Below are positions 3,742-49,563 of a DNA stretch of 64,000 nt, piece after piece. The notes beneath the pieces are model-generated. The model saw nothing but the letters and a program-made list of their open reading frames with translations, was not told the origin of the DNA and ran no database searches. How positions within the stretch are numbered: position 1 is the first letter of the stretch; every line of letters begins with the position of its first letter. Location of the stretch: the IMG/VR virus record IMGVR_UViG_3300005466_000026, positions 1-64,000 of that record; one strand, written 5' to 3'. The position numbers and the translations under genes are program-made. The stretch comes from a virus.

Positions 3742-5289
3742 TTACCCCTTGTCCCTGCCGTCTCTGCCGCGCTTCGTAGCGAGCTGCCATCCGCTGTCAG
3801 CTGTCCCAGGCTGCGCGTCCGTGTCCCTGAAGGCGTGCCACACGTTTCCGTCGCGCGTCACGCAGTCGCCGTTCTTGTACGTCTGTCCAGACTTCCACAC
3901 GCCCTGATAGAGCATGACTGGATAACTGATGGTGAACTCCTTCTTGTTCTCTCCCCTGAAGAAGCGAAGGATCAGATCCCTGGATCCCTCCACCGTGACG
4001 ACCTCCAGATCGTCGAACCCGACGCCGTCGAGACCGTCCCTTCCGTCTTTTCCGTCCTTAGGAATGGGTATCTCTGCGACAGCCGCAGCGACAAGAGCCT
4101 TGATCGCGTCCTTGTCAAGCCCGTCTCGACCCACCACGACACCCGCCTTAGAAATTCGACCGTCGTTAAAGATGCAATTAAGAACACCGTCGCGATCAAT
4201 ACTAAAAGACACGACGTGAGGAGTAGGAGGCAGCTCACTGACCACATCACGAACGGCAGCGTCAACGATGCTGCGAACCTGATCCAGAGAAACGCTCTCG
4301 CCAGGAGCTCCATCAGTGCCATCGCGGCCATTCTGTCCGTCCTTCCCGGGTTCTCCGTCCTTGCCATCCTTCGGCTTGGGCAGCTCGTCGACGTACTTTC
4401 TCAGTCCTAGAGCCTCTGCAGTCACGTAGCTCTCGACCGCGTATAGAATCTGCTCTGTGACCTTCTCCATGTCGACTACGCCGTCCTTGCCATCTGCGCC
4501 GTCTCGGCCGTCGGCGCCGTTCAGCACCGGGAACCTCTCGAAGTACGCAAGAACAGCACCACGAGCCAGCGTCTCCAGCTCCTCCTTGGTCGGCGTCGCG
4601 CCGTCCTTTCCGTCAATACCGTCTCGGCCCGGGATGCCCGGCTCACCCTTCTCGCCCGCGGGAGCAGGGTTCATCGAGAGATACTCTGTGGTCGCTATGG
4701 TCAGTATCTCCTTCAGCTTGTCGTAGTCTACGTCCCTGCCGTTCTCGCCGTCTCTGCCGTCCTTCGGAGCAGGTATCATGGAGACGACCTTCGCGACTAT
4801 CCCGTGCTCGTCCAGCGCCTTCACTACGTCGTCGACACTCGGAGGCTGGAACCGTTGAACCAGAATCTCGACCGCGTTATAGACTGCGTCCATGTCGCAG
4901 TGCCTGCCGTCCTTGCCGTCGACGCCGTCTCGGCCGTCCTTGCCGTCCGTGCCGTCCCTGCCCTTGAGCTCGACCATCCTGCCGTTGATGATCGCCTGAA
5001 CCTGATCGCCGCCGTAGCCGTAGAACGTGACGCCGTCACCGAAGTCCTCGATGTCGCGCCAAGTGATCTTGACAGGCTCGCTCGGCTGCTGCGCCGTCGC
5101 CGCGCTTATCGCGCCCTCTATCATGATCTGCGCGTCGTCCTCGTCGATGAGAGGACGCATCTCGAGAGCGCGAAGCTGACTCTCCAGCGCGTTAATCTTC
5201 GTCAGGAGAGGAGCCGTCGCGAGCTTAACCTGCTCGAACACGAAGGCGCCGACAGCCCTGAAGAACTCCGCCTGCTCGTTAGGCTGCAT
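3742..5289 (-). CDS. Collagen-like repeat virion protein
   Basis: About 515 residues. The ATG at 5289 is preferred to the GTG at 5298 because AAAGG lies 8 bases upstream. The N-terminal 110 residues carry a helical segment and a small domain. The centre carries at least eight blocks of G-X-Y triplets (GRDG, GKDG, GQNG, GEPG) separated by helical spacers of about 40-60 residues. The C-terminal 60 residues (YQGVWKSGQTYKNGDCV, then VWHAF) resemble a carbohydrate-binding module of the CBM5/12 type. Collagen-like phage proteins are usually trimeric fibres. It overlaps the portal gene by 11 bp, so it is made with the head genes. Confidence 0.8.
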   Translation of the reverse strand: MQPNEQAEFFRAVGAFVFEQVKLATAPLLTKINALESQLRALEMRPLIDEDDAQIMIEGAISAATAQQPSEPVKITWRDIEDFGDGVTFYGYGGDQVQAIINGRMVELKGRDGTDGKDGRDGVDGKDGRHCDMDAVYNAVEILVQRFQPPSVDDVVKALDEHGIVAKVVSMIPAPKDGRDGENGRDVDYDKLKEILTIATTEYLSMNPAPAGEKGEPGIPGRDGIDGKDGATPTKEELETLARGAVLAYFERFPVLNGADGRDGADGKDGVVDMEKVTEQILYAVESYVTAEALGLRKYVDELPKPKDGKDGEPGKDGQNGRDGTDGAPGESVSLDQVRSIVDAAVRDVVSELPPTPHVVSFSIDRDGVLNCIFNDGRISKAGVVVGRDGLDKDAIKALVAAAVAEIPIPKDGKDGRDGLDGVGFDDLEVVTVEGSRDLILRFFRGENKKEFTISYPVMLYQGVWKSGQTYKNGDCVTRDGNVWHAFRDTDAQPGTADSGWQLATKRGRDGRDKG

Positions 5290-6697
5290 CTGAGACACCT
5301 TTCCGCATACCTTCCATCGCCGACTCGAAGGTCACCGGAGGTGGAGGCAACAATTTTTGAGGTGGAGGTGCCTCAACTTGCGCAGGAGGCTTGGCGGTCC
5401 CTGGAGCAGTAGGTGGCTTCGCGGCGAAAGGATCTTCCTTGCTGTCGCGCTTGTCCAGCGCGGCGAGGCTGAAGTTCTGCTGCTGCAGATACGGCGTCTG
5501 GCCGCCCTTGACAGGCTTCAGATTCATCTTGCGTCGCGCCTCGTTGGGCGCGAGGATGCCTCTGTTGACACCTTCTCCGTACGTCTTGAACTGCGTGGCG
5601 GTGTCCATTCGCAGCAGGTCGTCGAGATCGAACTCGGTGCCGGAGTCCTGGTTCGCCGTCACCAGTCCCAGGCCGTTGTCGAGAACAGACTCTACACCCT
5701 CGATCAGCGCCTGCAGACACTGCGAGTAGTACATCTGATAGAGAGCCTCCACGTTGCTGTAGCTCGGGGTCGGCCCGACACCGACCATGAAGCCCGGAAC
5801 GTGAAACGCGGAGCAGACCTGCTCGCTCGACATCTTGAGCTGATCGATGAGCTGCGCGTCCACCGCGCTGATGGTCATCTTCTCATACTTCAGTCCGTCG
5901 CCGAGAACCGCGACCTTTCCAGCGTTCGCGCCGGTGTAGTTGTTGTCCCAGTGATCCTTCAGTCTCTTCGCAGTGTCCGGATCGATGAGACCCGGTGCCG
6001 TGAGAATTCCACCGGGCCGACTTCCGTTCTGGAAGAACCGCGTCGAGTTCTCCTGAATGCGAAGACCCTGCACGGCGGCCAATCCACACGCGGTGATGGG
6101 ACTGACGCCGCACAGCGGATGATACAGAGGAACATGAACGTCGTGGAAGATCTCGGACGCCGGAACCACGACCTGATCCTTGTCGACGCCCGCGAGATTG
6201 CTGGTCGAGAGCTGATAATAGACTTCTCCGTCCGACGTTATCAGCACCTTCGTCAGCATGGGATCCAGCACGTAGCCCGCGACCACCACGTCGCGATTGT
6301 CTCGCTCCTTGAGAACGTAGGTATTGCCGTGAATCATCTTCGAGGAGATCCACGACTCCACGAACTTCTGCCGCGTCTGATATCTGTTCGGCTTGCGAAG
6401 AAAGGGACTGAACGAGGAGTTCTCAGCCGGAGCCCAGACTCCGTCCCTGTCCCTCTCGACGTACCGAAGCTGCAGCTTGCCGATGTCGCTGGCGATCAGC
6501 GTGATGCAGGAGTAGACCGTGCTAAACGTCAGCACGTTCTCGAGACGAACCTCTATGTTCCGCTGCCACGCTCCCGTGAACGGCTCCATGATCGTCCCGA
6601 ACGACCAAGCTCCCCATCGGCTGGGAGACTGGACGTACGAGAGGCCGGGGGGAGGAGCGGCCTTTCGGACCGAGAGATCGTACCCGAGTATCCTCAT
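5279..6697 (-). CDS. Portal protein, HK97 family
   Basis: 472 residues, normal for HK97-type portals. Recognisable segments are STVYSCITLIASDIGKL near residue 60, a long stem region, and the conserved SNVEALYQMYYSQCLQALIE helix, followed by RGILAPNEARRKMNL. The last 70 residues are Pro/Ala-rich and probably disordered. The portal forms the dodecameric DNA entry ring and docks the terminase. The start overlaps the stop of the upstream small gene by 4 bp (ATGA). Confidence 0.95.
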   Translation of the reverse strand: MRILGYDLSVRKAAPPPGLSYVQSPSRWGAWSFGTIMEPFTGAWQRNIEVRLENVLTFSTVYSCITLIASDIGKLQLRYVERDRDGVWAPAENSSFSPFLRKPNRYQTRQKFVESWISSKMIHGNTYVLKERDNRDVVVAGYVLDPMLTKVLITSDGEVYYQLSTSNLAGVDKDQVVVPASEIFHDVHVPLYHPLCGVSPITACGLAAVQGLRIQENSTRFFQNGSRPGGILTAPGLIDPDTAKRLKDHWDNNYTGANAGKVAVLGDGLKYEKMTISAVDAQLIDQLKMSSEQVCSAFHVPGFMVGVGPTPSYSNVEALYQMYYSQCLQALIEGVESVLDNGLGLVTANQDSGTEFDLDDLLRMDTATQFKTYGEGVNRGILAPNEARRKMNLKPVKGGQTPYLQQQNFSLAALDKRDSKEDPFAAKPPTAPGTAKPPAQVEAPPPQKLLPPPPVTFESAMEGMRKGVSDAA

Positions 6698-36667: not shown

Positions 36668-37059
36668 ATTAGTCCCTCCACCTTCATCTGCTTGCGGCGC
36701 TCCTCGAAGTCCATGCAGAACGCGCAGGACTTCTTCGCCTCATCCTCGGTGCGCTCGCGACCGTCGTGGTCGCGGCCCATGTACGTCTGCCAGTGCGGAC
36801 GGTTCATGTCCTGGAGATCCCAGTAAGTCGGCATGTCGCCGTCCTTCTCGGGTACGATCTGGAACTGATCGTTGGATAGTGTCTTCTTGCCGTAGGCCTC
36901 AGCCTCCTGTGGCGTGGCGAACCGCTGGAAGCGGTCGCAGCGACTCCAGTAGGCTCGGCCGCGATGACCCTCGGCCAGCAGGTAGATGTGATACGGCACT
37001 GGATACTGACCCCACTGCGGAGCGTAGTCGGTGGTCGACATTGAGCGAATGAGATACAT
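36664..37059 (-). CDS. Hypothetical protein
   Basis: 131 residues from ATG 37059, which has GGAGAAG upstream; longer in-frame starts lack this. Beta-rich, aromatic first half (PYHIYLLAEGHRGRAYW). The C-terminus contains CAFCMDF. No family recognised. Confidence 0.55.
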   Translation of the reverse strand: MYLIRSMSTTDYAPQWGQYPVPYHIYLLAEGHRGRAYWSRCDRFQRFATPQEAEAYGKKTLSNDQFQIVPEKDGDMPTYWDLQDMNRPHWQTYMGRDHDGRERTEDEAKKSCAFCMDFEERRKQMKVEGLI

Positions 37060-37070
37060 TGTGCTTCTCC

Positions 37071-37250
37071 TTATTCTGCGTAGCAGATCAGTTGACCGGA
37101 ACGGTAGAAGACGCCTACCTTGTAGGCCTCGTCTACCACGATTATCTTCCACTCGTCGCACGGTCGGCAGTTGTCTCGGCCGTGCACCATCGCCCAGCGA
37201 TGGGCCTCGTCGACTGTCTTGAACGACGGGCTCACGTCCTTGGTAGTCAT
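37071..37250 (-). CDS. Hypothetical protein
   Basis: 59 residues: TVDEAHRWAMVHGRDNCRPC, then a beta pair (WKIIVVDEAYKVGVFYRSG). GGAGAAG is upstream. Function unknown. Confidence 0.5.
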   Translation of the reverse strand: MTTKDVSPSFKTVDEAHRWAMVHGRDNCRPCDEWKIIVVDEAYKVGVFYRSGQLICYAE

Positions 37251-37273
37251 GTGGCTTCTCCTGTTTGAGTTGA

Positions 37274-37453
37274 CTAGATGTAGCCGTAGAGCATGGCTTC
37301 GATGTGTGACTTCTGCTCCTCGCGAGTGCTGAGCTTCATCAGCTCTCGCGCCTCTTTCTCGGTGCAGCCGAACTCATCGGCTAGGTTCTCAATTACGATC
37401 TTGCGCTTCTTCAGCGACAGCTTGTTGTACGGCATCTTTTTTCTCTTGTTCAT
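37274..37453 (-). CDS. Hypothetical helical protein
   Basis: 59 residues: basic N-terminus and a helical core (FGCTEKEARELMKLSTREEQ) that resembles a UBA-like or small HTH fold. GGAGAAG is upstream. No family recognised. Confidence 0.55.
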   Translation of the reverse strand: MNKRKKMPYNKLSLKKRKIVIENLADEFGCTEKEARELMKLSTREEQKSHIEAMLYGYI

Positions 37454-40623: not shown

Positions 40624-41582
40624 GTCTCCGCCTCCCACGCGCGGTCTATCAGGTGATGCTTCTCGTCGCTCGGGTTCCACTCGTAGAGTGTAGCGACCCA
40701 CTCCTGCATCTTCTCCCACTCGTGACGATTGGCTTCTTCCTGAAACTTCGGGAAGTACTCTCTGGCGCCGAGAGGACACAGAGCGATCTTGACGACGTAC
40801 AAGTTACCCTGCGTCGGCTTGAAGTCGTACAGACTGCGGATGAGCGCGGGCGGCTCTCCGAACTTCGGATCGCACACGCTGGCCTCTAGAACCCACAGAG
40901 GACCGACTCTTCTGAACCACGTCTCGATGTGCATCTGCGTGAATACGTTGTTGATCACGTCGTCGGTCATCACCCACGGAGCCAGCGACTCGTGCTGCCC
41001 GCCGTCCTCAGGAGTACCGATGACTCTCTTGTCGTCGAACGGTGGTTTAGAGTACGCGTCCACCGACTCTACGCTGGTGTCGCTGTTCCAGACCTCGCTC
41101 ATCCTGCGAGCCTCCTCCGCAGTCAGCCGAGGCGCGACGATGATCTTCTTCTCTCGCTCCGGCAGCACCGCGCCGCGCGAGATCATCTCGGCCTCGATCA
41201 GCGTGGCGTAGCGCCGCAGGTCCCGGAGGCAGGCTAGAACGCTGCCGTCCTTGCCGCTCGGGTCGTCGTGTATCTTCTCGAAGACGTCCTCCTCGCTCAG
41301 CTTCTGCACCATCCACTCGGCCAGCTCGTGAGACAGCGTGTACTCCTTGTCCGGGTCCGTAGCTACGTCCTGAAGGTCCTCTCGGCTGAAGCTCTCCGGC
41401 CACGGCACGGAGGCCATCATGTTCAGCAGTCGGTCCATGTTCCTGCGAAACATGAACCACGCGCTTCGTCCACCGGCCATCTTCCAGCTTCCCTGATAGG
41501 TGGCCTCCTTCTCCCTGAGCAGCATGACGTCGCTGTCGGCGACGCGCTGCAGATGCTCCAGATGCTTCATGTCGTGGCTCAT
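40620..41582 (-). CDS. Hypothetical protein
   Basis: 320 residues from the ATG at 41582, chosen over an upstream ATG because it forms the ATGA overlap with the HD gene. Helical, acidic, Trp-rich (AWFMFRRNMDRLLNMM). No recognised motif. Coupled to the polymerase by TTGA. Confidence 0.6.
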   Translation of the reverse strand: MSHDMKHLEHLQRVADSDVMLLREKEATYQGSWKMAGGRSAWFMFRRNMDRLLNMMASVPWPESFSREDLQDVATDPDKEYTLSHELAEWMVQKLSEEDVFEKIHDDPSGKDGSVLACLRDLRRYATLIEAEMISRGAVLPEREKKIIVAPRLTAEEARRMSEVWNSDTSVESVDAYSKPPFDDKRVIGTPEDGGQHESLAPWVMTDDVINNVFTQMHIETWFRRVGPLWVLEASVCDPKFGEPPALIRSLYDFKPTQGNLYVVKIALCPLGAREYFPKFQEEANRHEWEKMQEWVATLYEWNPSDEKHHLIDRAWEAET

Positions 41583-42085
41583 GATATCTTCACTCCCTTC
41601 ATCCACTCGTCGACCTTGACGTACTGATACAGCTCGTCCGCCATCTTGAGTGCGATCTCTCTGGTGTCGCGCATGGGTATTGCGGCGTACTGATTACCCA
41701 TCATGAACTCGTGAAAGCAGAACTCGTACATCTCCAGCAGGTCGCAGATCTTGAACCGCTTCCACTCGTCCTCTCGCATCTGCGGCAGCTCGATCTGCTG
41801 ATGACCCAGACCCAGTCTCTCGGCCTCGTTGACAGCCGCGCCGTAGCCCTCGACTCGGTGCTTGCCGCCGAACGGAACGTCGCCGGCGAACTGCTCTCCC
41901 ATGTCGTGATGCAGGCAGTAGTAGAGAACCTCCGCGCGAGGAATACCGAACACCTCGCAGTAGATCTGCGCGACGCGACCCTGATGCTCGATCACGTTCG
42001 GCTTTCGCAGAGTCGGCCAAGTGTGCCATCGCGCCACCTGACCGGCTAGATGCCTTGATCTGTAGACTTGATCTCTAGTAACCAT
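41579..42085 (-). CDS. HD-domain nucleotide phosphohydrolase (YfbR-like)
   Basis: 168 residues. VIEHQGRVAQIYCEVFG (His34), then YYCLHHDMGEQFAGDVP (His60-Asp61, Glu64) and a later Asp-containing helix match HD-domain dNMP phosphohydrolases of the YfbR/5'-deoxynucleotidase type. It probably removes a phosphate from a dNTP or dNMP to shape the phage nucleotide pool, which fits its place between the ThyA homologue and the polymerase. DatZ of 2-aminoadenine phages is also an HD protein, but no PurZ homologue is visible here. Confidence 0.8.
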   Translation of the reverse strand: MVTRDQVYRSRHLAGQVARWHTWPTLRKPNVIEHQGRVAQIYCEVFGIPRAEVLYYCLHHDMGEQFAGDVPFGGKHRVEGYGAAVNEAERLGLGHQQIELPQMREDEWKRFKICDLLEMYEFCFHEFMMGNQYAAIPMRDTREIALKMADELYQYVKVDEWMKGVKIS

Positions 42086-43237
42086 TCACATCCTCCTCGT
42101 CATCCACTCGGTGCACGCCACGCGCCAGTCCTCTGACTGGATCTCGTTGGCTGCAGCCACCGCTCTTATCTTCTGGCCGTCTCTCCACAGACGGTGCGAC
42201 CGAACAACCGGCTGAGCAACCTCGCAGAACCAGTCGTTCTCGCAATGTCTCAGAGGTACGTCGCTCTCTGTTCGGTAGCACTCGTCGTGCCACGACATGA
42301 ACTCGATGACGTCCTCGTCGGCCTTCTCTCCGACCGTGAATACCGGGCGCGTCTTCAGCCGAAGAGAGAAGTACCTGTCGTCGTGCAGGGCGCCGACTAT
42401 GCTGCTCTCCTCCTTGGCCATTCGCTTGGTCATAACGCCGAGCATCGTCTCGTACATGTGAAAGTTGTTCGAGAGAACGTACAGATCACCCATCGCCACG
42501 CCGACGCGAGCAGCCAGATACTCCTGCAGAAAGCTGAAGTGCACCGAGTTCGCGCCGTAGAGTCCCCAGACGATGTCGTTACTGCGGCAGCACACCGTCA
42601 TGTCCAGAACTCTGTTCCCCTTAGATATGACCACGCCGTCCGGCCAGTGATCTGGACCGTCTCCGCGCACTCTGAGATAGATGTGCGTGTTGCACGGTCT
42701 GTCCTTCCACTCGCCGGTGAGGTCCAGAGCGCCGACCTCCTGCTCGCCGACGTTGCCGTTACCCAGACTAACGGGCAGCGTGACGCTGGAGCAGTCCCAC
42801 ATCTGGATGACGCACTGACGCGTCCCCGGGTCCTTGATCAGCCGATCCACGACCGCTCCCAGCTGATCAAGTCCGAAGCGGAAGCGCCATCGGTGTCCGT
42901 ACGCTCCGTGGATCTGACCCCCGGCCTCCCAGTTCGCGCTCCCGCTGGCGCTCTCGGCGAACCGCTGGCCGAAGTCCGTCACGTAGTGGTTCAGCGTCTC
43001 GGCGTCGTCCCTGCCAGCCAGCATCCAGATGGCCTCCACGACGTGAAAGAATGGATTGGCATCTCTCACCTTGCTGAAGACCACGCGCTCCCACGGTCTC
43101 TTGAGGCGCGTGACGACGGGACCGGGGGCGACTAGGCAGGGACCCGCCCGAGTCTTCTCGAGCAGGCCGGAGTTGATTAGCAGGTGCACTCCCTTCGGGA
43201 GTGCCGCCGCTGAGTTCGTGGTGTCGATGACGTGCAT
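42086..43237 (-). CDS. Thymidylate synthase/dUMP hydroxymethylase homologue
   Basis: 383 residues, longer than ThyA (264). ThyA-type catalytic region: DRPCNTHIYLRVRG with the nucleophile candidate Cys182 (neighbour Asn where ThyA has His), CCRSNDIVWGLYGANSVHF with Arg218-Ser219, Asp221 and Asn230 (equivalent to the Asn that selects dUMP; Asp in dCMP hydroxymethylases), and FHMY with His260/Tyr262. So it should act on dUMP with a folate cofactor. Whether the product is dTMP or 5-hydroxymethyl-dUMP cannot be read from sequence. The neighbourhood of kinase, radical SAM and glycosyltransferase genes favours hydroxymethylation. Confidence 0.85.
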   Translation of the reverse strand: MHVIDTTNSAAALPKGVHLLINSGLLEKTRAGPCLVAPGPVVTRLKRPWERVVFSKVRDANPFFHVVEAIWMLAGRDDAETLNHYVTDFGQRFAESASGSANWEAGGQIHGAYGHRWRFRFGLDQLGAVVDRLIKDPGTRQCVIQMWDCSSVTLPVSLGNGNVGEQEVGALDLTGEWKDRPCNTHIYLRVRGDGPDHWPDGVVISKGNRVLDMTVCCRSNDIVWGLYGANSVHFSFLQEYLAARVGVAMGDLYVLSNNFHMYETMLGVMTKRMAKEESSIVGALHDDRYFSLRLKTRPVFTVGEKADEDVIEFMSWHDECYRTESDVPLRHCENDWFCEVAQPVVRSHRLWRDGQKIRAVAAANEIQSEDWRVACTEWMTRRM

Positions 43238-43253
43238 CTGTGGCTCCTGTCGG

Positions 43254-43532
43254 TCAGAACGGTATCTCGTCGTCGTCCACCTCGGTGCGGCGTTTGCCGC
43301 CTCCGAAGGACGGCTTGTCGTCGCCGCTGCCGCTGCGCTCTGCGCGCTCCTTCGGCTCGAACAGCATGATAACTATCTTGTTCTCCTTCTTGGGGTCCGG
43401 GACGGGGACGCTGTCCAGGTAGATAGTGATCTGTCCCTTGTCGTTCTGGTGAGCCTGTCCTACTCGGTGCCACCAGACACCGTCCTCGTTGTACTTAGGT
43501 CTCGGAGTCATCGCGTCGTATCTCTTCGGCAT
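43254..43532 (-). CDS. SSB-like small protein with acidic tip
   Basis: 92 residues. N-terminal beta-type sequence (GQITIYLDSVPVPDP, NKIVIMLFE), then a Gly/Ser/Arg linker and the C-terminal DDDEIPF, the type of acidic-Pro-Phe tip that SSB uses to recruit replication proteins. The size is small for an OB fold. A role at the replication fork is inferred. AAGGGA lies upstream of the ATG; it overlaps the upstream gene by 38 bp. Confidence 0.5.
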   Translation of the reverse strand: MPKRYDAMTPRPKYNEDGVWWHRVGQAHQNDKGQITIYLDSVPVPDPKKENKIVIMLFEPKERAERSGSGDDKPSFGGGKRRTEVDDDEIPF

Positions 43533-43974
43533 GTGGCTGTCCCTTGAGATAGAGTTCTTCCAGCAGTATCGCCGCCAGACCCGCGCACTCTGGATCGTTG
43601 TACCAGCGGCACAATCCAGAGGGATGAGGTAGCTGCCGCCATGTGCATCCGTTCATCTGAACAGGGTGAATAAGTATCTTGGGGAGCTCCAGTGCACTGC
43701 GCACCTGCTCCCCGAACACGACAATGGTACGTCCGGCGTAGAGCGAAGGAAAACGCTCCGCCGCTGCCTTGGCCACCGGCCTGCTCCACGTTCTGGAGTT
43801 GATCAGGTTGAGCCGCTCGAAGCCGTCCATGTATCCCTTTCGCGTGACCTGCGGCTGGCGCGTCTGCAGAAGCCTCCAGAGACGGTAGCCGCTGCTCCCG
43901 GACGGGAACGGAGCGAGCGCGTACCTGGGATCCGCCGACAGCGGATTGTTCATTCCCAGCAGTACGGCCCTCAC
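43495..43974 (-). CDS. UDG-superfamily-like protein
   Basis: 159 residues from a GTG at 43974 overlapping the kinase stop (GTGA). AVLLGMNNPLSADPRYAL (GMNNP as motif 1) and LPHPSGLCRWYN (HPS motif) fit the uracil-DNA glycosylase superfamily core. It lacks the full UDG length. It could remove uracil or be a repurposed base-handling enzyme in the modification pathway, as some UDG-like proteins occur near modified-base genes. Function not shown. Confidence 0.6.
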   Translation of the reverse strand: MRAVLLGMNNPLSADPRYALAPFPSGSSGYRLWRLLQTRQPQVTRKGYMDGFERLNLINSRTWSRPVAKAAAERFPSLYAGRTIVVFGEQVRSALELPKILIHPVQMNGCTWRQLPHPSGLCRWYNDPECAGLAAILLEELYLKGQPHAEEIRRDDSET

Positions 43975-44519
43975 ACCAGATTGAGCCACCGAAACACCTT
44001 CGCGAACACCTGCTCGCGGGATCCTAAAAAGCATTCCACCTTCTCCTCTTGAAAGTCGTAGTAGTGTCTGCGACTCTTTCTGTGCAGCGCCTCGATAGTC
44101 TTCTCCTGGATCTTGTGACCGCGCTCACGAACGGCCTTGACGCAGTCCTCCAGAGGCTCGTCTATCAGGGCGACCGCTATCGGTAGTCCGGCGTCCCGAA
44201 GATCGAGCAGGTTCTGTGGCTTGTCGGTGAAGTTCTTTCCCTCGTAGAGCACGTTGCATCCGAGCTCCAGAGCGTGGATCCTCATCAGTTCGTACGCCAG
44301 CGGTAGACTAGGCAGCGTGTCCAGTCCGCCGTTCGCTATCTCGTAGTGTCCGGGAACGTACAGATGCTTCTCGTTGATGTTGTTGTGAGTCAGGATGTAT
44401 CCGGCAGGCTTCTGTCTGCCGGGATACTCCAGCTTGCGGCTCACCGGATAGAAGGACATGATCCTGCGGACCAGATGCGACTTGCCCGCGCCGTTCGTTC
44501 CCAGGAGACTGATTATCAT
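43971..44519 (-). CDS. P-loop nucleotide/DNA base kinase (5-hmdU kinase-like)
   Basis: 182 residues from ATG 44519. The Walker A is LLGTNGAGKSH (7-14). VPGHYEIANGGLDTL, then a helix and NVLYEGKNF, resemble P-loop kinases that phosphorylate 5-hydroxymethyl-dU in phage DNA; this resemblance comes from memory of the family. The family activates the 5-hydroxymethyl group as a (pyro)phosphate for later substitution. It is next to the helical partner-like and ThyA-like genes (coupled by GTGA to the UDG-like gene). Another small-molecule kinase remains possible. Confidence 0.75.
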   Translation of the reverse strand: MIISLLGTNGAGKSHLVRRIMSFYPVSRKLEYPGRQKPAGYILTHNNINEKHLYVPGHYEIANGGLDTLPSLPLAYELMRIHALELGCNVLYEGKNFTDKPQNLLDLRDAGLPIAVALIDEPLEDCVKAVRERGHKIQEKTIEALHRKSRRHYYDFQEEKVECFLGSREQVFAKVFRWLNLV

Positions 44520-44893
44520 GAGTGCTGATCCAGCTGACTGATCTCGTGCATGTTCGCCAGCGCGAACTCTCGACGGTCCTTCTTGTCCATGTCGTAGCAC
44601 ATCAGCAGCCACTGAGGAGTCTCGTACCACTCGCTGGTTCCCCACCGCACGCTGATGGGATTAACTGTTCGCCAGCTGAACGAGCCGCGATAGTTGACGT
44701 AGCTGAAGCGAAGAGTCTGCGTCGGCCGAGCCTCGTCCTGATGCATCTCCAGTATGCGAGCCAGCGCGGACAGATGATTGGTCGCCGAGGTGATCACCTC
44801 TCGAGCTCCCGTGTAGGACCATGCCGGATGCTCGCGACATAGCCTCTCGATGCTGGCGGCTAGATCTCTCAGGCTATGCTTCTGCGCTGGCAT
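44516..44893 (-). CDS. WYL-domain-like mini-protein
   Basis: 125 residues from ATG 44893. The first 55 residues are helical. Residues 60-120 match a minimal WYL-type domain: LRFSYVNYRGSFSWRTVNP, IRVRWGTSEWYETPQ-like spacing, QWLLMCYDMDKKD and EFALANM. WYL domains sense nucleic acids or small ligands in regulators. It has no HTH. It overlaps the radical SAM gene by 20 bp and the kinase by 4 bp, so it is co-expressed with the modification genes. Confidence 0.65.
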   Translation of the reverse strand: MPAQKHSLRDLAASIERLCREHPAWSYTGAREVITSATNHLSALARILEMHQDEARPTQTLRFSYVNYRGSFSWRTVNPISVRWGTSEWYETPQWLLMCYDMDKKDRREFALANMHEISQLDQHS

Positions 44894-45953
44894 CGTCGCC
44901 TCCTCTGGGTCCCTGATAGGCTGGCACCGGCTCGCGATCCTTCCACGGCAGACGCACCACCTTGTCGCGCTGACCATGCGAGAGAGCCTCCTGGATGTCT
45001 GCCGCCGTCTGCGCGTCGGGCTTGTGCAGCTTGCCCTGACCCATCAGGTCCGGAAGCAGGCCGACGCGATAGCTGCGATGATTGCACCCTCGGCACGGCG
45101 TGAAGTCGCGCTCGCCGCGTATCAGCTTCTCCCTGGCGGCTCCCATCGCGTCGCCCTGCCACAGCTCACCGATGTTGGTCTCGTTCGTGTTGCCCACGAA
45201 GTACGGACTGTCCCACGTGTTGCAGCACAGAGGAACGTTGCCGTCCCAGTGAATGGCGATCTGCCTGAACGGATGATGACACCGCTTGCCTGCCATACTG
45301 TCGTCGGGCGCGAAGGCGAGGCCAGCGTAGTTGAACACCTTGCCGTGATTGCCAATCTTCTTGTCGGCCGCCTGCGACGCGAGATCCCGTATCTTCACCA
45401 GCGTCCTCGTGCCCGGTCTTCGGCGCTTGTGCGGGTTCCCGCGAATGTCCCGCGGATAGTCGTAGTAGGTGAAGCCAAGAGGATGCTTGACGCCCGATCG
45501 CAGCTTGCCCTTCTCCTCGATGGCCGCGATGACCTTCTCCACGAACTTCACGTTCTCGTAGTCGTCCAGCCCGAGGACGCTGACGCCAGCGTCGAACAGC
45601 GCTGTCACGTTCACCACCGGACCCGGCTTCCTGAGTAGTCCCCCGGCGTTGGTCAGCATCGTGATGTGCGCCTTCGGCAGACACTCGCGAGTGGCCGCCA
45701 TCATCCCCACGTAGTCCGGATGCATGGTGGGCTCACCGCGCATGGCGAAGCCGACGCGACAGTTCCAGCCGAGAGCTCTCACGTCCGTGAGCGCCTTGAC
45801 CAGCGTCTCCTTCTTCATGAACTCGTATCCCTTGCCCTGCTTCTCCTGTATCGCGGAGACCGCGCAGAAAGGACAGTTTAGATTACAGCCGCGCGTCAGC
45901 TCCAGCGTGACGTTGAACGGGGGTTCCTGAGTACGGTATCTTCGGCGCGTCAT
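44874..45953 (-). CDS. Radical SAM protein with SPASM-like C-terminus
   Basis: 359 residues from ATG 45953. The radical SAM cluster CxxxCxxC is Cys23-Cys27-Cys30 (LTRGCNLNCPFC), followed by MRGEPTMHPDYVGMM. The C-terminal region has CHHPFRQIAIHWDGNVPLCC and CRGCNHRSY, as in SPASM/Twitch domains that bind extra iron-sulphur clusters. Such enzymes do difficult carbon chemistry. A radical SAM protein is also found in some phage base-hypermodification clusters, so a role in altering a modified base or its amino-acid adduct is a reasonable inference. Confidence 0.85.
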   Translation of the reverse strand: MTRRRYRTQEPPFNVTLELTRGCNLNCPFCAVSAIQEKQGKGYEFMKKETLVKALTDVRALGWNCRVGFAMRGEPTMHPDYVGMMAATRECLPKAHITMLTNAGGLLRKPGPVVNVTALFDAGVSVLGLDDYENVKFVEKVIAAIEEKGKLRSGVKHPLGFTYYDYPRDIRGNPHKRRRPGTRTLVKIRDLASQAADKKIGNHGKVFNYAGLAFAPDDSMAGKRCHHPFRQIAIHWDGNVPLCCNTWDSPYFVGNTNETNIGELWQGDAMGAAREKLIRGERDFTPCRGCNHRSYRVGLLPDLMGQGKLHKPDAQTAADIQEALSHGQRDKVVRLPWKDREPVPAYQGPRGGDDASAEA

Positions 45954-46900
45954 AGGTTCTTCTCCAGTCTGTTGTAGGCCTCTAGGACCTTGTCCTTCAG
46001 ATCTCGCTTCTCGCGAGCAGCCTTCAGCCACCATCGGTCCTGCTGCTCCTTCAGTATCTCTGCCCGTCTGGACATCCTGCGCTGAACGGAGGCCGCGTTG
46101 CTGACCAGGAAGTCTCCTGGGTCATAGCCTGCCTTGCGCAGCGTGTAGCCCGCCTCCTCCTGGAACACCATAGGAAGTCCGCCGCTGAGCATCTCGTAGA
46201 AGCGGTTGGGAGGCGAGTGGAAGTTGCTGTGCGACTTGGCGTCCTCGAGATAGAGGCCGAGGCCGTGCCGTCCCAGCTCGGAGTGCAGATCCTCTATCTT
46301 CTTGACGTGTCGCACGTTGGGTCCGTTGTACTTCTGCTCGAACCGACTTGTCGGCGAGGAGATGGTTATGGGCAGCGACGGACTGTTGAAGAACTTGTCG
46401 AACGCCTTGGTTCGGCCGGCTCGGAAGCTTCCGTAGTAGAAGAGGTCTCCGGCGTCCTTCTTATTCAGAGGCGGCTTCTCCTCCTCGAACCCCAGAGCGT
46501 TCCAGTTTATCAGCGAGCTGAGAGTCGTGAGCTTGCTCTCCCTCTCGCAGGTCGTCCAGAACTCCAGGTGCGACTTACCCGCCTTGCGTCGGTCGACGAA
46601 CGCCTTGCGGAACGGCGACGTAGCGTCGCCGTCGTTGATGGGCGGAACTATGGTGTAGTCCTGCTGTATCCAGACGATGCGCCTGACGCCGCGTATGGCG
46701 TGCGACAGCGGCTCTAGATGCTTGCAGAAGGCGTATGCCCCGTTCACTATGAAGAGGACGTCCGCCGTCTTGTAGAGCTCAATGGTCTCGTCGTCCACCA
46801 GCGGCAGGTCCAGCGTCTTGCTGAGAAAGAACGCCGCCTTGACCGACGCGACCATCGACTTCTCGCTGCACGCTATGAAGCTGAATATGGCTGCCTTCAC
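45950..46900 (-). CDS. Glycosyltransferase-like protein (CgeB/GT-B type)
   Basis: 316 residues. An N-terminal Rossmann-like half (KTADVLFIVNGAYAF, IVWIQQDYTIVPP). A C-terminal half with GLGLYLEDAKSHSNFHSPPN, RFYEMLSGGLPMVFQEEAGY, then a helix LKEQQDRWW. This is the UDP-sugar-binding arrangement of CgeB-like GT-B enzymes. In the modification cluster it may glycosylate a hypermodified base. An alternative is a cell-surface glycosyltransferase. Confidence 0.75.
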   Translation of the reverse strand: MKAAIFSFIACSEKSMVASVKAAFFLSKTLDLPLVDDETIELYKTADVLFIVNGAYAFCKHLEPLSHAIRGVRRIVWIQQDYTIVPPINDGDATSPFRKAFVDRRKAGKSHLEFWTTCERESKLTTLSSLINWNALGFEEEKPPLNKKDAGDLFYYGSFRAGRTKAFDKFFNSPSLPITISSPTSRFEQKYNGPNVRHVKKIEDLHSELGRHGLGLYLEDAKSHSNFHSPPNRFYEMLSGGLPMVFQEEAGYTLRKAGYDPGDFLVSNAASVQRRMSRRAEILKEQQDRWWLKAAREKRDLKDKVLEAYNRLEKNL

Positions 46901-47106
46901 GTCTCACCTCTCTGCTTCTGGAAGTCCCTGACTTGGTTAATTATCCTCTGCTTCGCGCCCGAAGCCAAGTTCTGAATGGCTCTCTGCTGCCAGCACGTGG
47001 GATCTCGCGGCGGCAGATGCGAGACGTAGTCTGCGTAGCTGAGAACGTCTCCGTAGTCGGAGTCCGTGTCCCGAGCGATCTTGAGAAGCGGATAGCTGGT
47101 GCTCAT
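46897..47106 (-). CDS. Hypothetical protein
   Basis: 69 residues: acidic, Tyr-rich start and a helical end (AIQNLASGAKQRIINQVRDF). Coupled to the glycosyltransferase and methyltransferase by ATGA overlaps, so probably part of the same expression unit. No family recognised. Confidence 0.5.
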   Translation of the reverse strand: MSTSYPLLKIARDTDSDYGDVLSYADYVSHLPPRDPTCWQQRAIQNLASGAKQRIINQVRDFQKQRGET

Positions 47107-47717
47107 CTTCGGTCCATTCTCAGGACGTGCCAGCCTGCCTCGAAGATCGGCACGTCACCCGTGATCTTGAAGCCGCCGCGACTGATCATGGCCAGGAACT
47201 TCTTCCTGTCGTGCTCTGCCGTGTTGCTCTTCAGCACGTACTTGTCGCCGAAGCGTATCGTGCAGATGATGGACCTCTTCGCGAGCTTCATGAAGCCCCT
47301 CATGGCCGCCTGCATGGAGGGCTCGTCGATGAGGTCCAGGAACCGCACCGCCACGATCACGTCGGAGGGTGGCAAGCCCTCCAGCTTTCTGGCGTCGCCG
47401 ACCTGCAGGACGTAGGACGGCGGCACCTTCTTGTTCTTCAGCTTCCCCTTAGCTATGGCGAGCATCTGCTCCGAGGAGTCTACGCCCGTAACGGTGGCCA
47501 CGCTCAGCTGATGATACAGATAGAAGAACCTGCCGGTTCCCACCGGGCAATCGATCACGGTCTGCGGCCTCAGCTCGGTGAGCATGTCCTCGACCGCCGC
47601 GTTCTCCTCGCCCCATCGTATCTGCTTCTTGCGCTTGGCCTCGTAGCCGCTCGCCATCTTACCGCGATACTTTCTCGCGGTCCTGTCTCCCAGATTGAAT
47701 GCCGCAGATGGTCTCAT
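47103..47717 (-). CDS. SAM-dependent methyltransferase, class I
   Basis: 204 residues. VIDCPVGTGRFFYLYHQL is motif I of class I methyltransferases; VTGVDSSEQMLAIAKG and YVLQVGDARKLEGLP complete the SAM site, and VAVRFLDLIDEPS corresponds to motif IV. The N-terminal 50 residues are a basic helical extension (YEAKRKKQIRWGEENA). The substrate is unknown; lying in the modification cluster, it may methylate a base or a base adduct. Small-molecule methyltransferase is also possible. Confidence 0.75.
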   Translation of the reverse strand: MRPSAAFNLGDRTARKYRGKMASGYEAKRKKQIRWGEENAAVEDMLTELRPQTVIDCPVGTGRFFYLYHQLSVATVTGVDSSEQMLAIAKGKLKNKKVPPSYVLQVGDARKLEGLPPSDVIVAVRFLDLIDEPSMQAAMRGFMKLAKRSIICTIRFGDKYVLKSNTAEHDRKKFLAMISRGGFKITGDVPIFEAGWHVLRMDRR

Positions 47718-47912
47718 CTATCTCCTCCCCTTGCTGTCGAAGACTACTCTTCCGGTTGATCTCTCGAAGCACGTGACCGCCGCGCTGCTGTTTCTAGCCA
47801 TCGCGCCCACGAACTCCTTGCAGGCTTCCTTGCTGTCGAACTTGACCTGCTTCGGCTCCTCGCATCCGAGGAAGCTGCAGAACGTTATGAGTACGAAGAA
47901 TGGACTTTCCAT
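47718..47912 (-). CDS. Small putative lipoprotein
   Basis: 64 residues. The first 18 (MESPFFVLITFCSFLGC) are hydrophobic with a possible lipobox LGC, then a compact charged domain (KVKF..KEACKEFVGAM-like spacing). It overlaps the homing-endonuclease gene by 28 bp. Possible exclusion protein; unproven. Confidence 0.45.
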   Translation of the reverse strand: MESPFFVLITFCSFLGCEEPKQVKFDSKEACKEFVGAMARNSSAAVTCFERSTGRVVFDSKGRR

Positions 47913-48691
47913 GTCACTTCTCCTAATTGCTGCTTCATCTTCATGCCTTTATTCCACGGTTCTCGTCCTTTCATTGCGGCACTCATTTTTGCACGAGACT
48001 CAAGAGTGTGCTTCTTACCTTTTCTCTTCGACGGTTTTCCTTTCTGTGCTGCGCTCATCTTAGCTCGAGACTCAGCTGTATGTTTCCGACCTGCTATCCA
48101 GGGAATTTGACCCTTATGAACATCACTCATCTTTTTTCGGTGCTCAGGATTTTCCCACGCCTTCTTGATTAAATCTTTCAATATGATTGAGCCTCTCTCA
48201 CGATAATCAGGATCTTTCCATCTTTCTTTTGACTCTCTTCTCATTTTATTCGCTTGGCGCTCTCGATACTCTGGATCTTTCCACTGCTCTTTTAATTGCC
48301 TTGTCATAGAAGCACTCCTACGCTCACGAAATTCAGAGGACTCCCATAGCTTCACGACTGCTAGTCTCATTGCTTCACGTGAAGCTTCTCTGGAGATAGC
48401 GTATTGCCAGCTAGAGCATGGTCTGCCTTGAGTCATTCTACTGAGTGCACTCACCATCTGATGATGTGCTCTGCCATCAAGAATAAATTTAGTCAAGAGC
48501 CAGTGTGCCAGAAAATGTTCTCGATAGGTCAGTGAGACCAAGTTCTCTGAGCTGTTATACCAGCTCGGATCTCCGCCGAAACTTCTAGGGTTTCGGTGAT
48601 GTCTCTCGTAACGTACTCCTGGTTCGCGCTCGCGGCTCGCGGCGCGATCCATGATCTGCGTGTACCAGAGACGATACTTCTCAGTGCTCAC
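47885..48691 (-). CDS. HNH homing endonuclease with NUMOD3-like repeats
   Basis: 268 residues from a GTG at 48691 that overlaps the preceding stop (GTGA). RYERHHRNPRSFGGDPSWYN, then NLVSLTYREHFLAHWLL, is an HNH nuclease of the homing type. Four or five repeats (WKDPEYRERQ, WKDPDYRERG, AWENPEHRKKM, then HTAESRAKMS and HTLESRAKMS) are NUMOD3-like DNA-binding modules. The gene is clearly richer in A/T than its neighbours, which marks recent insertion of a selfish element into the modification cluster. Confidence 0.88.
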   Translation of the reverse strand: MSTEKYRLWYTQIMDRAASREREPGVRYERHHRNPRSFGGDPSWYNSSENLVSLTYREHFLAHWLLTKFILDGRAHHQMVSALSRMTQGRPCSSWQYAISREASREAMRLAVVKLWESSEFRERRSASMTRQLKEQWKDPEYRERQANKMRRESKERWKDPDYRERGSIILKDLIKKAWENPEHRKKMSDVHKGQIPWIAGRKHTAESRAKMSAAQKGKPSKRKGKKHTLESRAKMSAAMKGREPWNKGMKMKQQLGEVTWKVHSSYS

Positions 48692-49563
48692 GCGAACACT
48701 CCTCTTGGTCTGCCCTCGCCGTTCCTGACTCTCTCGTACTTGTCGAACTCGCAGAGCGTGTGCTCGACGTCTCGCATCTCCCACTTGGGCCACTGCCTCG
48801 GCCAGTTGCCCGGACTGCAACTGGCCGCGAGGATCAGCTGCATCTCCTCCAGCATCTTGGGCACCCTGACGCTCTTATCCTTCTTGTTCCTGCCGTGTAT
48901 CCGGTTCAGTCCGCGCCTCGCCCCCGGTCCCACGTTGCACCAGCTCATGATGTCGTTCGCGTCGCAGAGAAGGTTGGTGTGCCGCAGGTCCGTGACTATC
49001 TCGTACGAGTGAAATGTGCCGAGCCACGGCTGCATCTTGAACCAGAGCCAAGCCGTCTGCAGAGACATCTTCTCCTTAATCATCTGCTTGGCAGCGTCCC
49101 TCCATCCGCTCTCCTCTCTGAAGTTCTTCAGGATCTCCAGGATCCCGTCCAGCTTGGTGAAGCCGGGGGGAGAGGTTATGATGTACGCTCCGGTGACGTA
49201 GGGGCCGTCACCGCAGATCGCCTTGACGTCCTTCTTCATGCGTCGCAGGTCTCCGGTCTGCAGGAACACCGCGAAGGCGTTGTTCTTGTCGAAGTCCAGG
49301 TGATTGAAGATGGCCTCTCCCGTGCTGATCCTGTTGAACATGCGGAACACGACCGTGGCCAGTAGCACGTCCGGCGAGTCTCTCATCTCCTCCCTCACGT
49401 TGCGTCGGAACCAGTCAGTGGTCTTGTCCAGCTCCCGGAAGACGTTCGTGAACCTGTACTTCTGCAGGATCGGGTCCCTCGTCAGGGACGACTTCCCCTC
49501 CAGACGGTTCAGGTACACCTGATGTCGCTGCCTCGCGTAGTTGAAGAAGGACTGCATCGTCAT
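48688..49563 (-). CDS. HMUDK-helical/aGPT-Pplase-like base hypermodification protein
   Basis: 291 residues. The N-terminus (SFFNYARQRHQVYLNRLEG, then LTRDPILQKYRFTNVFREL and DKTTDWF) has the signature of the helical partner domain of 5-hmdU DNA kinases and of alpha-glutamyl/putrescinyl-thymine pyrophosphorylases, a DNA-glycosylase-related family. I am unsure which clade it belongs to. Helix-hairpin-helix-like sequence follows (NRIHGRNKK region). With the P-loop kinase at 43971-44519 it forms the diagnostic pair of thymidine hypermodification. Confidence 0.8.
   Translation of the reverse strand: MTMQSFFNYARQRHQVYLNRLEGKSSLTRDPILQKYRFTNVFRELDKTTDWFRRNVREEMRDSPDVLLATVVFRMFNRISTGEAIFNHLDFDKNNAFAVFLQTGDLRRMKKDVKAICGDGPYVTGAYIITSPPGFTKLDGILEILKNFREESGWRDAAKQMIKEKMSLQTAWLWFKMQPWLGTFHSYEIVTDLRHTNLLCDANDIMSWCNVGPGARRGLNRIHGRNKKDKSVRVPKMLEEMQLILAASCSPGNWPRQWPKWEMRDVEHTLCEFDKYERVRNGEGRPRGVFA

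Follow-up and report, generated by a model that had tools for sequence, protein, structure and literature searches.

What becomes of thymidine hypermodification when a phage carries an enzyme like T4 beta-glucosyltransferase (BGT) where an amino-acid transferase would be expected? This question is raised by a gene cluster on the minus strand of an uncultivated phage, IMG/VR record IMGVR_UViG_3300005466_000026. The contig has 85,774 bases. The window analysed here is its positions 1-64,000, and the cluster runs from 42,086 to 49,563.

A reading made from the letters alone, here called the sequence-only reading, had taken this cluster for a locus that hypermodifies thymidine by way of 5-hydroxymethyldeoxyuridine (5-hmdU). 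This is strongly supported, since the ThyA homologue and the HMUDK_hel protein match those of hypermodifying phages. The locus is probably the glycosyl branch of this pathway, in which the final base would be a processed glycosyl-5-hmdU and not an aminoacyl-thymidine. The proposed product is a glycosylated and oxidised 5-hmdU, which may also be methylated or phosphorylated.

Hypermodification of 5-hmdU is already known as a kind. The form that glycosylates, with a BGT-like glycosyltransferase (GT) and a radical S-adenosylmethionine (SAM) protein like BtrN, looks new. A cluster of kinase, BGT-like GT and BtrN-like protein is not described in the literature searched, which did not take in Lee et al. 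2022.

The base and the substitution step

The ThyA homologue is 33-37% identical to M6/PaMx11-type proteins and falls in one group with the M6 and PaMx11 hydroxymethylases. Aligned with M6, PaMx11, Sonora and Pam3, it has an Asn at the deoxyuridine monophosphate (dUMP) position, as well as the Cys nucleophile. The sequence-only reading had picked out this Asn, and it is indeed present (GANSVHF in the window); the T4 deoxycytidine monophosphate (dCMP) hydroxymethylase has Asp at that place. Trp80 was dropped as an argument for hydroxymethylase activity, since T4 gp42 has a Trp at that place as well.

The protein encoded at 48688 matches Pfam's HMUDK_hel, also called aGPT-Pplase1 (E=3.2e-46). 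It is 35-45% identical to named phage proteins and is the homologue of M6 gp55 and PaMx11 gp50. The sequence-only reading got the family right, but the implied route, kinase activation followed by substitution by this helical protein, does not hold: the substituting enzyme is aGPT-Pplase2, or ADDT. The M6 and PaMx11 operons include ADDT (gp51/gp46), a kinase (gp54/gp49) and HMUDK_hel (gp55/gp50), along with a ThyA homologue and tailoring enzymes. The title of PDB entry 8z2n names PaMx11 gp46 a 5-phosphomethyl-dU glycinyltransferase, and substitution therefore belongs to ADDT. The AlphaFold2 model of HMUDK_hel (pLDDT 93.5) has a weak likeness to helix-hairpin-helix DNA glycosylases and to PaMx11 gp46, at E 0.18-0.7, which is not significant alone. 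Comparing the HMUDK_hel profile with gp46 in hhalign gave no match, and neither did PDB sequence searches with the GT, HMUDK_hel and uracil DNA glycosylase (UDG)-like profiles.

ADDT (PF18724) is missing here. A Pfam search of the whole 85.8-kb record gave no candidates at E<=10, and a profile built from four phages also found none in this record. M6, PaMx11 and a related locus, L075, do register in the same search. L075 had been considered a kinase locus without a partner, which was rejected as it carries an ADDT fusion. The GT-type relatives L012, L014, L015, L017, L096 and L099 lack ADDT in their records as well.

It could still be that the kinase activates 5-hmdU for substitution with an amino acid or amine, with GT and methyltransferase (MT) as decorators and a transferase that went unrecognised or lies outside the record. 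The window does have its kinase and HMUDK_hel in common with M6 and PaMx11. We consider this very unlikely, given that the same search finds ADDT in the controls but not here or in the GT-type relatives. Furthermore, the record holds no pyridoxal phosphate (PLP) enzyme, flavin adenine dinucleotide (FAD) lyase or acetyltransferase of the M6/PaMx11 type. The radical SAM family, retrieved on its own from IMG/VR and dereplicated to 51 loci, was found with ADDT in none of them (0/51).

What does stand in the cluster is the protein encoded at 45953-46900, which has no family match. Its AlphaFold2 model (pLDDT 87, pTM 0.85) was compared with solved structures using Foldseek. The best matches are T4 BGT (1bgt/1c3j, E=3.6e-10, TM ~0.6), and the T4 alpha-glucosyltransferase (AGT) is also among the matches listed. 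The earlier label 'GT-B-like' thus holds by predicted structure. Sequence similarity to T4 BGT is marginal. Five residues, D81, R160, R163, R233 and E236, align to D100, R191, R195, R269 and E272 of T4 BGT, of which we take D100 to be the catalytic base and the other four to be ligands of the uridine diphosphate (UDP) sugar. All five are identical in the 20 phage sequences aligned (some of these near-identical), that of E. coli phage IME392 among them. Named phages have only distant homologues, at 26-28% identity. The protein is most likely a T4 BGT-like DNA glycosyltransferase, which would act on a 5-hydroxymethyl pyrimidine. ADDT is absent and this GT is there in its place. The GT most likely replaces the substitution step, instead of being the later decoration that it had been taken for.

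GT-B enzymes often act on glycans, so it is at least conceivable that GT, radical SAM protein and MT work on a nucleotide sugar or a glycan of the host surface, and that their place next to replication genes is incidental. This is extremely unlikely. The fold and active site of the GT match the T4 DNA glucosyltransferases, the coupling of HMUDK_hel to the thymidylate synthase (TS) homologue is conserved in many phages, and no relatives of the GT turned up when 84,980 cellular species genomes were scanned with a pattern.

Glucosylation in T4 and T6 (beta-GT, alpha-GT, TAGT) is like this system in the fold and five active-site residues, and also in the swap of BGT-like and TAGT enzymes at one position, which is known in Straboviridae and reported for T4 versus T6 (PMC13390438). 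It differs in that the window's base would come from a dUMP-type and not a dCMP-type hydroxymethylase, and that radical SAM protein, MT and kinase are added.

In IME392 (MH719082, L102), homologues of the GT and of ThyA lie together with HMUDK_hel, an MT, an AAA_28 kinase and a PIG-L deacetylase, possibly for an amino sugar. L067, L090, L130 and L151 have the radical SAM protein and another GT-B; the cytidylyltransferase-like protein in L090, L130 and L151 suggests a nucleotide sugar made by the phage.

Gene order and neighbouring genes

All genes named in the sequence-only reading were found, on the minus strand. Pfam and PHROGs give the families of the ThyA homologue, P-loop kinase, radical SAM/SPASM protein, class I MT and HMUDK_hel. 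The list had overlooked the UDG-superfamily, WYL-like, HNH/NUMOD3 and HD phosphohydrolase genes.

41579-42085, minus strand: HD/YfbR-like 5'-deoxynucleotidase (HD phosphohydrolase), M6 gp59 homologue (PF12917, E=2.9e-6)
42086-43237, minus strand: putative ThyA-family dUMP hydroxymethylase, M6 gp58/PaMx11 gp51 homologue (PF00303, E=2.8e-15; phrog_5131, E=1e-81)
43254-43532, minus strand: 92-aa protein, phrog_18187, no Pfam family matched
43498-43974, minus strand: UDG-superfamily protein with SMUG/Mug-like motifs GMNNP and PHPSG, GTG start (weak family profile, motifs)
43974-44519, minus strand: P-loop DNA 5-hmdU kinase-like protein, PaMx11 gp49 homologue (phrog_800, Walker A GTNGAGKS)
44516-44893, minus strand: small WYL-like protein (PF13280, E=6.5e-5; phrog_3715, E=9e-20)
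44874-45953, minus strand: radical SAM/Twitch protein, BtrN-like (PF04055 and PF13186)
45953-46900, minus strand: T4 BGT-like putative DNA glycosyltransferase (predicted structure)
46897-47106, minus strand: coupled 69-aa open reading frame (p69), found only in near relatives
47103-47717, minus strand: class I SAM MT (PF13649, E=1.7e-10); relatives adjoin the GT in L017, L110 and L127
47885-48691, minus strand: HNH/NUMOD3 homing endonuclease inserted behind HMUDK_hel (PF07460, phrog_655)
48688-49563, minus strand: HMUDK_hel/aGPT-Pplase1 helical protein (PF18723, E=3.2e-46)

The proposed coupling by ATGA/GTGA overlaps is borne out. Two can be seen in the sequence: the radical SAM gene starts with an ATG that overlaps the stop of the GT (45953), and the UDG-like gene with a GTG that overlaps the stop of the kinase (43974). 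Four more (MT/p69, p69/GT, WYL-like/kinase and HMUDK_hel/HNH) follow from open reading frame coordinates.

With M6 and PaMx11 the window has in common homologues of the dUMP hydroxymethylase, HMUDK_hel and HD phosphohydrolase, a kinase that aligns with that of PaMx11, and the same replication-gene context. It differs from them in having no ADDT, PLP enzyme, FAD lyase or acetyltransferase, and in having a BGT-like GT, BtrN-like protein, MT and UDG-fold protein instead.

In the UDG-like family, 4 of 8 members match PF03167 weakly (best 1.8e-4, and the single score seen falls below the cut-off), and the window's own protein does not match it. PHPSG..YN is invariant, and phage homologues are annotated as uracil DNA glycosylase. 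The protein may excise U or 5-hmU, or may simply recognise these bases. In most loci of the glycosyl branch (L012-L030; also L082) its gene is close to that of the ThyA homologue, and in L015 (11505-13427) both domains share one open frame, a possible fusion. Distant homologues occur in M6-like phages (M6 36838-37281) and large Rhizobium phages. The notion that UDG-like proteins never occur with ADDT was rejected after L082 and the distant M6 homologue.

For the endonuclease gene directly behind HMUDK_hel (window 47885-48691), L011 and L107 are also of note. L011, a contig that is 97% identical, lacks exactly window 47925-48687, so the endonuclease gene is evidently a recent mobile insertion or loss. 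Upstream, an exonuclease frame overlaps the start of HMUDK_hel by 149 bases (window 49415-49563), and its C-terminus may therefore be frameshifted.

The radical SAM protein and its partners

The radical SAM gene that had been named is present, with radical SAM and SPASM/Twitch domains in Pfam. The closest solved structure is BtrN, which the family profile matches at E=2.2e-19, across both the core and the Twitch domain. Cysteines C23, C27 and C30 (CX3CX2C) and the Twitch cysteines C225, C243, C287 and C290 are invariant and align with BtrN. BtrN, a sugar-alcohol dehydrogenase with a Twitch domain, has four Cys as ligands of its auxiliary cluster and performs a two-electron oxidation of an aminocyclitol hydroxyl (PMC9012708). 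By this likeness, the window's protein would carry out a two-electron oxidation of a sugar alcohol.

Across the 51 loci of this family, a ThyA homologue is found in 48, HMUDK_hel in 44 and any glycosyltransferase, counted as BGT-like, TAGT (PF20691) or another GT-B, also in 44. The family is not confined to such loci. In a prophage-like region of Actinomadura rayongensis DSM 102126 it lies with a C5-cytosine methylase, ParB, a GT-B and a TET/JBP protein, and viral contigs L218-L221 also have it with TET/JBP. Neither a ThyA homologue nor HMUDK_hel was found in the Actinomadura region or L218-L221. These clusters are alike in having the same family beside ParB, TET/JBP and GT, and different in that the hydroxymethyl group would come from oxidation in DNA and not from a ThyA homologue. 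The loci with a BtrN-like protein in a TET/JBP cluster are L184 and L218-L221, the Actinomadura strain included.

Since the radical SAM protein also occurs in clusters without ThyA and HMUDK_hel, and since its common partner across backgrounds is a glycosyltransferase, its substrate is probably the sugar, which is also the most economical choice. More generally, the BtrN-like family, widespread in phages, might oxidise sugars attached to DNA bases whether the hydroxymethyl group is of ThyA or of TET origin; this broader idea is tentative, and we lean slightly against it.

Alternatively, the protein could act on the pyrimidine or the hydroxymethyl carbon, as an isomerase of the sort proposed for M6 gp53, with its linkage to the GT incidental. 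In M6, a radical SAM enzyme reportedly works on the side chain of thymidine, a finding attributed to Lee et al. 2022. This seems quite unlikely here: the window's protein is not of the gp53 family, its constant partner in both TS/HMUDK_hel and TET/JBP backgrounds is a glycosyltransferase, and the substrate oxidised by BtrN, its closest relative of solved structure, is a carbocyclic sugar analogue.

The kinase, the order of steps and their meaning

The P-loop kinase named in the sequence-only reading is there (phrog_800, E=1.6e-10). It fits in the family alignment and is 31% identical to PaMx11 gp49. When checked against Pfam's HMUDK profiles, gene 48688 matches HMUDK_hel, and the kinase does not match HMUDK_HMUD1 although it can be aligned to the PaMx11 kinase. 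Phage records annotate it as 'terminase small subunit', an annotation not used as evidence for 5-hmdU. In the L030 record (L104, ~4674-5612), a PaMx11-type kinase lies far from the HMUDK_hel, UDG-like and ThyA genes, and the record has no recognised transferase.

HMUDK_hel loci were dereplicated at 90% to 62, of which 50 have sufficient flanks and also contain a ThyA homologue. The 18 of these with a kinase have either ADDT (12, with L075 included after correction) or a BGT-like GT (6), and never both (Fisher 5e-5). TAGT loci are without a kinase, in their flanks and in nine whole records. One locus, L127, carries kinase, GT and TAGT together, and strict exclusion of kinase and TAGT was rejected after it was found.

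These TAGT records, which have no kinase, hold HMUDK_hel and the ThyA homologue together, and so do marine records where the only addition is an adjacent MT. In L050, L056, L064 and similar marine records, the two are directly adjacent with the MT just upstream. Neither a kinase nor any of ADDT, BGT-like GT and TAGT was found in the record; such loci perhaps make methylated 5-hmdU. HMUDK_hel would then be a factor that recognises or flips 5-hmdU and not strictly a kinase subunit, which suggests that its name is too narrow. HTVC023P-type pelagiphages are similar in their constant TS/HMUDK_hel pair near polA, a pairing already reported, some with a putative glucosyltransferase (PMC9599517). They differ in that the kinase and a BGT-like enzyme are not described there, and 'radical SAM' is absent from the text of that paper.

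On the HMUDK_hel tree, the transferase state switches about 10 times, and a TAGT locus is the closest sister of the window. Compared with L095 and L099, the window's GT is 55-59% and its radical SAM protein 69-70% identical, and the HMUDK_hel of L095 only 25%. GT and radical SAM genes thus behave as a cassette that moves.

The reactions of the glycosyl branch, and their order, we infer; what is computed are homologies, active sites, the absence of ADDT and gene associations. First, the ThyA homologue would turn dUMP into 5-hm-dUMP, to be incorporated in phage DNA, where HMUDK_hel would recognise or flip the 5-hmdU. The GT would then move a sugar from a nucleoside diphosphate sugar, probably made by the host, onto the 5-hydroxymethyl group. 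The radical SAM protein would oxidise an alcohol of this sugar, and the MT, which had been correctly noted and was found by Pfam, would cap the product. The kinase may phosphorylate either 5-hmdU or the sugar.

The main rival starts from this kinase. It would make 5-phosphomethyl-dU, after which the GT joins a sugar to the phosphate in a phosphodiester like that of Bacillus phage SP-15, followed by radical SAM protein and MT. The kinase accompanies the BGT-like GT in 6/6 flank-qualified HMUDK_hel loci, and is present in 8 of 10 BGT-like GT loci retrieved through the radical SAM family. 5-phosphomethyl-dU is moreover the acceptor of PaMx11 gp46 (PDB 8z2n title), and in SP-15 a sugar is joined to modified uracil by a phosphodiester, which offers chemical precedent (PMC5977210). 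This route is nevertheless unlikely. A hydroxyl acceptor calls for the Asp that serves BGT as catalytic base, and all homologues retain it; L182, L135 and L229, moreover, carry the GT but no kinase close by. Of thymine glyco-modification, SP-15 is a known case and YerA41 a suspected one. SP-15's glycosylated dihydroxypentyluracil is comparable as a sugar-bearing, partly phosphate-linked thymine replacement, and different in its teichuronic-acid-like gene cluster, with no HMUDK_hel or radical SAM protein named (PMC5977210).

Several points weigh against the glycosyl branch as drawn here. No family member has known chemistry, the kinase is unexplained as a BGT-type enzyme needs no phosphorylated acceptor, and the record may be incomplete. 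The similarity to BtrN lies partly in the Fe-S-binding Twitch region, which many radical SAM enzymes have. L127, and the three BGT-like loci without a kinase nearby, mean that the kinase/GT and kinase/TAGT rules are not absolute. The association counts are not phylogenetically independent; independent-pair tests with treekit go in the right direction, underpowered by too few pairs.

The locus would be a sugar branch of thymidine hypermodification, and its radical SAM family, for which no role on DNA has been described, seems dedicated to DNA bases that carry a sugar. The idea is directly testable, as the cultured phage IME392 and the Actinomadura strain carry related genes. If true, it adds a class of DNA modification for which the literature searched has no description, keto- or otherwise radical-processed glyco-DNA, and radical chemistry on DNA-linked sugars would join the known anti-restriction modifications. 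Many of the thymines in the phage's DNA would probably be turned into sugar-bearing, further-processed bases, and such modified bases would shield its DNA from host defences.

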